DNA of 64,000 nucleotides from Gemmatimonadaceae bacterium (lineage in GTDB: Bacteria > Gemmatimonadota > Gemmatimonadetes > Gemmatimonadales > Gemmatimonadaceae): contig JADZAN010000016.1 in assembly GCA_020852815.1 (NCBI GenBank), positions 62,001 to 126,000 on the forward strand. Direction: 5' to 3'. Of the stretch, positions 22,619 through 29,168 are shown piece by piece. The translations under genes were made by a program, and so were the position numbers. The notes beneath the pieces were generated by a model. It had not been told where the DNA came from, ran no database searches, and worked only from the letters and a program-made list of their open reading frames with translations. Each line of letters starts with the position of its first letter. The first letter of the stretch is position 1.

Positions 22619-23365
22619 TCAGTCGTCGGCGCTCGGCGGGGCGAGGAGGATCCGGTCGCGGATGCGGGAGTAGATGCGGGCGTAGATCGCCTTTCCGGTC
22701 TCGGCGCTTGCCAGCGATGGGCGCCCGATGGAGCCGGCGCTCCCCCGCGGGACCCTGAGTGACTGGCGCCGGTATCGCCCAAGCGCCTCAGGGGTGATCA
22801 TATAGTCCTGCGCCAATTCCATCTTCACCAGCGCGGGGGCCAGGTACAGCAGGAGCGAGGTATCGACCTCGTCGCCGTGCAACGGCCCCACCCCGCTCAC
22901 CGTCAGGTCGGAGAGATTGATCGCGAGGATGTCGACCACCCGCACCCGCGCCCCCTTGGTGATGACCGTCGACAGCGCTTCCTGATGTCCCTCGTGCCCG
23001 TGGGCGGTCAGGAAGACGAACTCGCGAACGCCCCCGGCCTCCCAGGCGTCGGTGAGGTCGTTGAGCGCGCGCAGGAGTGTCTTGCGCCGGAGCGTGGCGT
23101 TGCCGGGTACGACGCGCTCATGATCGGAGTTGACCCCGTACTCGACCGTTGGCGCGCGCAGCAGTCGCAACTCCGCCGAGAGATCGTCGGCGAGCCGGTC
23201 GACGATGATCGTATCGACCCCCATCGGCAGGTGAGGACCGTGCTGCTCGCATGTCCCGACCGGGATCAGGAGACGGGGATCACGCCCGAGCACCTCCGCC
23301 ACTTCGTCCGGGCGGAGTTCCTTGAGGCGAAGCGGATGGGAATACCCTGTTGGATCGGGGAGCAT
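22619..23365 (-). CDS. Creatininase-family amidohydrolase
   Basis: Members of this metal-dependent family hydrolyse small cyclic or formyl amides (creatinine, FAPy in riboflavin biosynthesis, mycofactocin precursor). The 248-residue protein has the metal site PVGTCEQHGPHLPMGVDT, NSDHERVVPGNATL, FLTAHGHEGH and GDEVDTSL, so the core looks complete. The true substrate is not deducible. Its start ATG (23365-23363) shares two bases with the ATG of the divergent sensor kinase gene, so there is no space for separate promoters between the coding regions. Confidence 0.88.
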   Translation of the reverse strand: MLPDPTGYSHPLRLKELRPDEVAEVLGRDPRLLIPVGTCEQHGPHLPMGVDTIIVDRLADDLSAELRLLRAPTVEYGVNSDHERVVPGNATLRRKTLLRALNDLTDAWEAGGVREFVFLTAHGHEGHQEALSTVITKGARVRVVDILAINLSDLTVSGVGPLHGDEVDTSLLLYLAPALVKMELAQDYMITPEALGRYRRQSLRVPRGSAGSIGRPSLASAETGKAIYARIYSRIRDRILLAPPSADD

Positions 23366-27413: not shown

Positions 27414-29168
27414 ATGCCAGCCACCCCGTACAACGGCGTCCGGGCGGTTCGCCCGTCGCACGATTCGCTCGACACTCCCAACCGCGTGTCGTACGACCTG
27501 CCGGTGCACCTGCGCGAGTGGGAACTCCCGCCCGAGTGGGCCTGGGGGAGCGAAGGGGTCTACATGGAGTACCGGCACTACCAGGAGGTGCGCGACGCGC
27601 TGGGGCGTTCGCTCTCCCTGGTGAGCGTCCCCGATCCCGCGCACGTGGGCTGGCTGGCGCGCGAGGCACGCTACCTCGCGCACCGCAACCATCCGGCCAT
27701 TCCCACCACGTACCACTACTGGGCCCCGCACACCTCCACCAGGCGCGGGCCCGGGTACCTGCGCCGCTGGATCTCGTCGGAGACGATCGGCGCCCGCGTG
27801 CGCCGCACCGGGCCGGAGGACATTCCGGCCATCATGCGCATGCTGCGCGCCGTTGGGTCCACGCTGGCGTACCTGCACGACTCGGGGCAGGTGCACGGCG
27901 GGATGTCGCCGGAGGTGGTGTGGGCGTCGCCGTCTGGGCGCTATTGGGTGTTAGGGTGGCAATGGGCGATGGCGAAGGGCGAGGTCCCGGCGGGGCTGCG
28001 CCCCGACCGCCGCTGGACGCCGATGCCCCCGGAGTGGGACGACGAGTGGCTCCCCACGCACGCGTCGGACCAGTGGCAGCTGGCGGCCACGTGCTTCCTG
28101 GCCATCACCGGGGAAATGCCGCCCTCGCGCGAGGCGCCCCCCATTCGCCTGCTGCGCCCGGAATGTCCGCAGGCGCTGGCCAACATCGTCGACCAGTCGC
28201 TCATCCCCGACCCCGCGCTGCGCCACCGATCGGTCACGTCGATGTTGCGCGCGCTGGAACGCGTGAGCGGGACACGCTCGATGTTCGTCAGTGCGCCCGC
28301 CATTCCCTCGGCGCTCAGCGACGAGGGGCGCCTGCGCTGGGCGGTGGGCGACGACTACGAGATCCTCGGCTTCCTGGGGAAGGGGACCTTCGGGTCGGTG
28401 TGGCGCGCGCGCGACCTCTCGCTCGAGCGCGAGGTGGCGCTCAAGATGTTGCACCCGGCGGTGGCCGAGGACGAGCGCGCCGTGGGGCGCTTTCGGCGCG
28501 AGGCGCGGCTGGCGGCCATGCTTGCGCATCCGGCCATCATCCCCATCTACGACTGGGACGCGCGCGGCGAGGTGACGTGGTACACGATGGAGCTGGCCGA
28601 AGGGGGGTCGGTGGCCGAACTCGTGGCGCGCGCCGGCCCGCGCCCGTTCGAGGAGATCGCCCCGCAGGTCGACGCCATCCTCGATGCGCTCAACGCCGCG
28701 CACACCAACGGCATCATCCACCGCGACCTCAAGCCCGAGAACATCCTCATCGATCGCTACCGTCGCTGGCGCATCACCGACTTCGGCATCGCCAAGGGTG
28801 AGGACGAGCCCACCGGCACCACGGGCACCCCGGCCTTCGCCGCCCCCGAGCAGATCCTGGGGGAGGCACAGGGCGCCTCGGTCGACTGCTTCGGCGTGGC
28901 GGCCATCGTGTACTACGTCATTTGCGGCAAGCCGCCGTTTGACGGGCACGACGCGCAGGCACTGCTCGCCCAGCAACTCGGCGCGCGATACGACGAGTCG
29001 CTCCTGCCGCCGCCGCTCGTCGCCTTCATCAAGCAGGGGCTCGCCCCCGAGCCGGCCAAGCGCTTTGCCGATGCGGGGGCCATGAAGCGCTCGTGGCAGG
29101 GTGTGGTGGAGGAGATGGAGCGCGAAGCGCGCCGCGGCGATACGTGGTGGGGGCGCGTCCTGGGATGA
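27414..29168 (+). CDS. Tandem pseudokinase - Ser/Thr protein kinase
   Basis: A 584-residue soluble protein with two kinase-like domains. The C-terminal domain (about residues 315-575) is a complete Hanks-type kinase: GKGTFGSVW (322-330), catalytic lysine K344 in VALK, HRDLKPEN (436-443), DFG (456-458) and APEQ. The N-terminal domain (about 57-285) has the same fold pattern but lost the key residues: HGGMSPEVV replaces HRDLKPEN at 161 and LGW replaces DFG, so it is a likely pseudokinase. No transmembrane or PASTA segment is seen. It is in one operon with the giant sensor kinase, and could be its regulator or target; this is inference. Confidence 0.9.
   Translation: MPATPYNGVRAVRPSHDSLDTPNRVSYDLPVHLREWELPPEWAWGSEGVYMEYRHYQEVRDALGRSLSLVSVPDPAHVGWLAREARYLAHRNHPAIPTTYHYWAPHTSTRRGPGYLRRWISSETIGARVRRTGPEDIPAIMRMLRAVGSTLAYLHDSGQVHGGMSPEVVWASPSGRYWVLGWQWAMAKGEVPAGLRPDRRWTPMPPEWDDEWLPTHASDQWQLAATCFLAITGEMPPSREAPPIRLLRPECPQALANIVDQSLIPDPALRHRSVTSMLRALERVSGTRSMFVSAPAIPSALSDEGRLRWAVGDDYEILGFLGKGTFGSVWRARDLSLEREVALKMLHPAVAEDERAVGRFRREARLAAMLAHPAIIPIYDWDARGEVTWYTMELAEGGSVAELVARAGPRPFEEIAPQVDAILDALNAAHTNGIIHRDLKPENILIDRYRRWRITDFGIAKGEDEPTGTTGTPAFAAPEQILGEAQGASVDCFGVAAIVYYVICGKPPFDGHDAQALLAQQLGARYDESLLPPPLVAFIKQGLAPEPAKRFADAGAMKRSWQGVVEEMEREARRGDTWWGRVLG

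Follow-up and report, generated by a model that had tools for sequence, protein, structure and literature searches.

NtrY-NtrX systems consist of a membrane histidine kinase with HAMP, PAS, HisKA and HATPase_c domains and a sigma-54-type regulator of the NtrC family, and the NtrYX system of Rhodobacter sphaeroides governs the cell envelope (PMC7240162). A single chain with an inactive pseudokinase ahead of an active Ser/Thr/Tyr kinase is known from PglW of type 2 BREX and from some DndF proteins (PMC12839542), and the Janus kinases show the same order (JH2-JH1). Bacterial pseudokinases such as MviN/ActPs3, GLW and CP1, with degraded VAIK, HRD and DFG motifs and bulky aromatic residues at the nucleotide site, are treated in a review (PMC12599244), the accessible part of which describes no pseudokinase fused to an active kinase in the manner reported below, and contains neither the word 'tandem' nor the string 'Gemmatimon'. 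The window analysed here, a 64,000-nucleotide stretch of DNA from a member of the Gemmatimonadaceae, carries a giant NtrY-like histidine kinase and a pseudokinase-kinase side by side (Table 1). Both signalling genes are conserved, and in one family they stand next to each other. The original prediction for this locus is partly supported: its observations were correct, its interpretation was partly wrong, and a better candidate for the partner of the sensor is encoded elsewhere.

Table 1. Features of the locus and its surroundings, in window coordinates.
Feature	Position	Strand	Basis or remark
MacAB-TolC-type exporter operon	12842..21626	-	divergent from histidine kinase across class
Four clustered MacB-type permeases	12842-18011	-	one tested by Pfam
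ABC ATPase	18034-18858	-	exporter operon
HlyD-type adaptor	18855-20138	-	exporter operon
TolC-like OEP	20154-21626	-	exporter operon
DUF6134-like protein, divergent operon	21806..22558	-	
Creatininase-family protein, first gene of divergent operon	22619..23461	-	
Giant NtrY-like sensor histidine kinase, 1345 aa	23364..27401	+	ORF, Pfam, hydropathy, AlphaFold model
Pseudokinase-kinase P0002, 584 aa, soluble	27414..29168	+	ORF, Pfam, AlphaFold, homologue alignment
Pseudokinase domain, aa about 40-285	27531..28268	+	AlphaFold, profile comparison, alignment
Active-type Ser/Thr kinase domain, aa about 303-575	28320..29138	+	Pfam, fold search, alignment
NtrX-like response regulator (receiver + sigma-54 AAA + Fis-type HTH; GSFTGA)	56194..57558	+	proposed cognate partner of histidine kinase

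Both open reading frames lie where they had been placed, with 12 bp between them. Pfam detects a Pkinase domain at residues 315-561 of P0002 and returns no match in residues 1-309. The C-terminal domain has the fold and residues of a Hanks-type Ser/Thr kinase (Lys, Glu, HRD, Asn, DFG and APE), and K344, E363, HRDLKPEN (436-443) and DFG (456-458) are invariant in 55 homologues. Its fold is closest to that of PknB of Mycobacterium tuberculosis (Z 31.7, 34% identity) although, unlike PknB, P0002 lacks PASTA domains and a membrane part. In the N-terminal domain the VAIK lysine is replaced by Val70, HRD by HGG (161-163) and DFG by GWQ (181-183), as the original prediction had seen for HRD and DFG, while the alphaC Glu84, APE Glu207 and alphaF Asp219 are kept and are invariant in the aligned homologues. 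The AlphaFold model of the protein (mean pLDDT 85.9) gives this domain a bilobal shape with helices and strands in kinase order, in agreement with the expectation that structure prediction would find it kinase-like, and a profile comparison aligned the N-domain with the C-domain over 228 columns at a probability of 99.9%, where controls with shuffled columns reached 0.1-0.2%. A PDB fold search with the whole kinase model is no test of the N-domain because the C-domain took all of its matches. Each half of the model is confidently folded; their mutual placement is not confident (pTM 0.54).

The motif losses were followed in the same 55-homologue alignment, in which a few genomes are counted twice and incomplete rows leave fewer sequences per N-domain site. 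The beta-3 lysine is never present (V or I in Gemmatimonadaceae, R in the sister families), and the catalytic aspartate of HRD occurs in just two of 52 rows. At the DFG position most Gemmatimonadaceae have GW(Q/E), and overall G, E, A or D followed by W replaces DF; in seven sister-family rows the DFG aspartate is retained, as DLR. The pseudokinase-kinase thus predates the split of the families, and the Gemmatimonadaceae later lost one further motif. With a predicted kinase fold and a loss of motifs that is conserved in the aligned relatives, the N-domain can be classed as a pseudokinase. The loss of catalytic motifs could also be that of a decaying remnant without function, which is very improbable: the domain is no less conserved than the remainder of P0002 (mean column identity 54%, with many invariant residues), Trp182 and Trp184 are invariant in Gemmatimonadaceae, and the structural Glu, Glu and Asp are retained across the order, so that this explanation is already disfavoured. 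A second, diverged pseudokinase-kinase (44% identical) is encoded elsewhere in the same genome (contig C9, L094:9196-11121); it was found only in genus g1 (G000, G040) and sits on a long branch.

The order of pseudokinase and kinase is confirmed, and the likeness to JAK that had been proposed is one of order only: P0002 is bacterial, has a Ser/Thr-type HRDLKPEN loop and shows no FERM or SH2 match in Pfam. The original prediction saw no named precedent for the gene pair, which does not hold for the kinase part given the inactive-then-active tandem of PglW and some DndF proteins. The PglW profile is collinear with P0002 over both domains (139-572 to 314-780). However, P0002 is a free-standing protein of 584 aa without the NERD nuclease, wHTH, iSTAND and C-terminal DNA-binding domains of PglW, and it scores 95 bits with the NCBIfam PglW model, the cut-off of which is 990. 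Assignment of the kinase to BREX or another phage-defence system was considered and rejected, as the PADLOC matches were to a generic kinase only, and no BREX genes were seen in the annotated parts of the window.

The histidine kinase has the architecture of the NtrY type, with Pfam matches to HisKA (1127-1184, motif HEIKNPLTPIRL) and HATPase_c (1242-1340); the HAMP (953-1003) and PAS (about 1016-1119) matches are weak and fall below the Pfam cut-offs. Its start is uncertain (ATG at 23364 or GTG at 23421). Hydropathy gives 11 clear spans and the AlphaFold model suggests about 14 membrane helices, the first estimate having been about a dozen. Modelling of residues 1-1009 together with 20 relatives (mean pLDDT 87.8) placed three extracytoplasmic alpha/beta domains between the membrane helices. 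Structure comparison related the first (aa 99-273) to KinD, LuxQ and CHASE4 (Z about 8-9), the second (525-729) to double-Cache receptors and the third (795-926) to CitA and WalK (Z about 10). In the models these are likely domains of the Cache/PDC-like fold class, and no more than likely because the Z-scores are middling. Compared with NtrY, the sensor is far larger and has three sensor domains. None of the curated NCBIfam models matched above its cut-off, the best being AtoS (163.7 bits against a cut-off of 646). Orthologues are present in 166 of 200 genomes of the phylum, in most families without the kinase as neighbour; nearly all members of its class have the giant three-sensor histidine kinase, which stands without a regulator gene beside it. 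Six genomes of genus g3 (G010, G016, G062, G093, G126 and G136) have shortened histidine kinases with matches that stop near residue 960; in G016 the match picks up again at 1117, as if the HAMP/PAS part were gone.

The original prediction stated that the two genes stand without a response regulator. This is right for the immediate neighbourhood but not for the wider region, as the NtrX-like regulator of Table 1 lies 28.8 kb downstream of the histidine kinase and is inherited with it. Using an orthologue cut-off of E 1e-145 for the regulator, 162 of the 200 phylum genomes have both genes, 32 have neither, four have only the histidine kinase and two only the regulator (raw counts, not corrected for phylogeny). 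The discordant genomes are mostly fragmented MAGs, and the genomes without either gene include several lineages that look separate (genus g5, G132, genera of f5, and f7). Of 83 pairs that share a contig, 81 have the regulator within 80 kb downstream of the histidine kinase and on its strand (5-73 kb, median 13.8 kb); the sensor and regulator genes of NtrY-NtrX, by comparison, are adjacent. Among the Pfam-tested genes from the histidine kinase to the regulator, the regulator itself is the only one with a receiver domain. It carries GSFTGA, and the genome has rpoN (sigma-54). The two genes make the best available case for a cognate pair, short of proof, and from these sequence comparisons the regulator about 29,000 bases downstream appears to be the real partner of the sensor. 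Against this pairing, a second orphan histidine kinase (39878-42559, minus strand, 893 aa, GAF + PAS + GAF) is encoded between the two genes and thus nearer to the regulator.

Linkage of the histidine kinase and the pseudokinase-kinase was assessed in two samples. Of 64 Gemmatimonadaceae genomes with the kinase, 52 have the histidine kinase immediately upstream of it, seven have it nearby in convergent orientation, two have it elsewhere and three lack it, so the genes are neighbours in 59, seven of them tail-to-tail. The second sample, 80 public loci partly overlapping the first, yielded the catalytic half of the histidine kinase in 73 cases, of which 60 are tandem and 13 convergent; one further locus has its N-terminal part only, and six have flanks too short to be informative. 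Where named, the records belong to Gemmatimonadaceae or Gemmatimonadota, and odd labels are rare. One of these, a MAG labelled Kuenenia, has the same tandem pair (59% identity in the catalytic half of the histidine kinase) and is probably mislabelled. Among the best 80 of 127 relatives of the N-domain, none outside Gemmatimonadota was convincing. In a larger search of the family, 152 of 179 genomes had the kinase, as did 99 of the 105 of good quality. The two genes often overlap or are less than about 100 bp apart. The conserved linkage that the prediction called for is present in Gemmatimonadaceae, so that neither of the two outcomes it had named as refuting was obtained, but it is not present in the sister families, where both genes are unlinked in 24 of 24 comparable genomes (on different contigs or far apart). 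A conserved single transcript, as had been assumed, does not fit the sister families, nor the convergent arrangement, which forms one clade in the kinase tree and usually has another gene in between. No fusion of histidine kinase and kinase, which would be direct proof of a link, was present in any locus tested: open frames of 2607 and 2644 aa are really the two proteins in one frame split by one TGA, and a frame of 2263 aa (G260) is an out-of-frame artefact.

The two genes could nevertheless belong to one pathway: the Ser/Thr kinase could be acted on by the histidine kinase or by the ligand of the latter, or it could itself tune the histidine kinase or the regulator by phosphorylation. Adjacency throughout the family, often with overlap or within about 100 bp, speaks for this, as does the closeness of the genes after their rearrangement to convergent orientation, and cross-talk between such kinases and two-component systems is known elsewhere, with PrkC acting on the WalRK system (PMC4478028) and StkP on ComE (PMC6010298). 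The kinase is, however, separable from the histidine kinase. Two genomes of genus g5 (G021 and G023, loci L106 and L107) have lost the histidine kinase and the regulator and have kept the kinase with all its motifs, now beside the exporter operon; a third genome of the genus (G190) has the same pattern of presence. This genus is nested inside the Gemmatimonadaceae in the kinase tree. The reverse is seen in G048 (L110), and likewise in G047, G094 and G112, where the histidine kinase is present without the kinase. Within the family the presence of one is not significantly associated with that of the other (61/4/3/1, Fisher p = 0.27), a test of low power because there are only about three losses. 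Taken with the unlinked genes of the sister families, these cases do not support a required route from histidine kinase to Ser/Thr kinase, and a single pathway seems rather unlikely.

On its other side, the histidine kinase is divergent from an operon for creatininase, DUF6134, TolC, HlyD, ABC and MacB proteins in families f1, f2, f5 and f6. The starts of the divergent creatininase and histidine kinase genes overlap or abut (23364-23461), so one or both may be misplaced and promoters may lie inside the genes. No -24/-12 (sigma-54) promoter was found in the region between histidine kinase and exporter, and none is conserved there, so that the exporter may not be a target of the regulator. The DUF6134-like protein, present in 150 of the 200 phylum genomes, was rejected as a strict co-factor of the histidine kinase, being kept without it in G034, G042 and G133 and missing from some genomes that have it. 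The kinase could instead belong with the exporter or another envelope machine, the histidine kinase merely lying in between. It directly adjoins the exporter operon in the two loci that have lost the histidine kinase, and some members of the family carry a TonB-dependent receptor gene on its 3' side. Against this, genomes with convergent or unlinked genes, and those of the sister families, have the kinase at a distance from the exporter, and the receptor does not adjoin it in the window. We regard this possibility as unlikely.

In five genomes (G027, G168, G217 and G221 of genus g9, and G286 of genus g2) there is no stop at the end of the kinase ORF, which reads on into the receptor (Plug + barrel), a signal-peptide-like segment joining the two parts. 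The joint frames are 1253-1313 aa long (L149:6971-10882 in G027, L145 in G217, L156 in G221, L157 in G286 and L206 in G168). Elsewhere in the family the receptor has a gene of its own 3' of the kinase, next to it or with one gene in between. Several MAGs share the open frame, which makes a single sequencing error unlikely, and the receptor may have an internal start within it. At L198:6065-6067 and in L199 (G217, G286), one frame comprises the histidine kinase, a single TGA stop, the pseudokinase-kinase and the receptor. A lineage-specific hybrid module, in which a Ser/Thr kinase gated by its pseudokinase acts jointly with the NtrYX-like sensor and envelope transport proteins, including a kinase-receptor polyprotein in g9 and g2, is a doubtful idea. 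If the polyprotein were real, cleavage at the signal peptide would yield an inner-membrane-anchored pseudokinase-kinase and an outer-membrane receptor in equal amounts.

The best reading, to which we give a rough probability of 0.6, is that of two units side by side, an NtrYX-like envelope-sensing system and, next to it, a Ser/Thr kinase that regulates itself. What the computation shows is the domain content, the status of the pseudokinase, the linkage, the regulator's inheritance with the sensor and the separability of the kinase; phosphotransfer, regulator targets, allosteric control and a role in the envelope are inferred. According to the two-unit reading, the three extracytoplasmic domains would read an envelope or solute cue, and phosphate would pass from the DHp histidine of the histidine kinase to the NtrX-like sigma-54 activator, the system being associated with the divergent exporter/creatininase operon. 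The envelope role of NtrYX in R. sphaeroides agrees, by analogy, with the transport neighbourhood here, short of proving function. P0002 would be a cytosolic Ser/Thr kinase, the pseudokinase of which may, by analogy with JH2-JH1 of JAK, allosterically hold or release the C-terminal kinase. It may have been recruited beside the histidine kinase in the ancestor of the Gemmatimonadaceae, the probable reason being shared expression and a role of both in envelope or exporter physiology rather than obligate activation of the kinase by the histidine kinase. Against the two-unit reading, an adjacency that is family-wide and survives rearrangement exceeds what chance neighbours usually show.

The locus illustrates that conservation of neighbours alone can point to the wrong signalling partner; here, long-range synteny and co-loss yielded a testable partner for the giant three-sensor histidine kinase. 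The system would gain in interest if the histidine kinase, the kinase and envelope transport turned out to work as a single module. The Gemmatimonadaceae also offer a compact, single-copy bacterial pseudokinase-kinase, present family-wide, in which allosteric control could be tested without the complexity of JAK.
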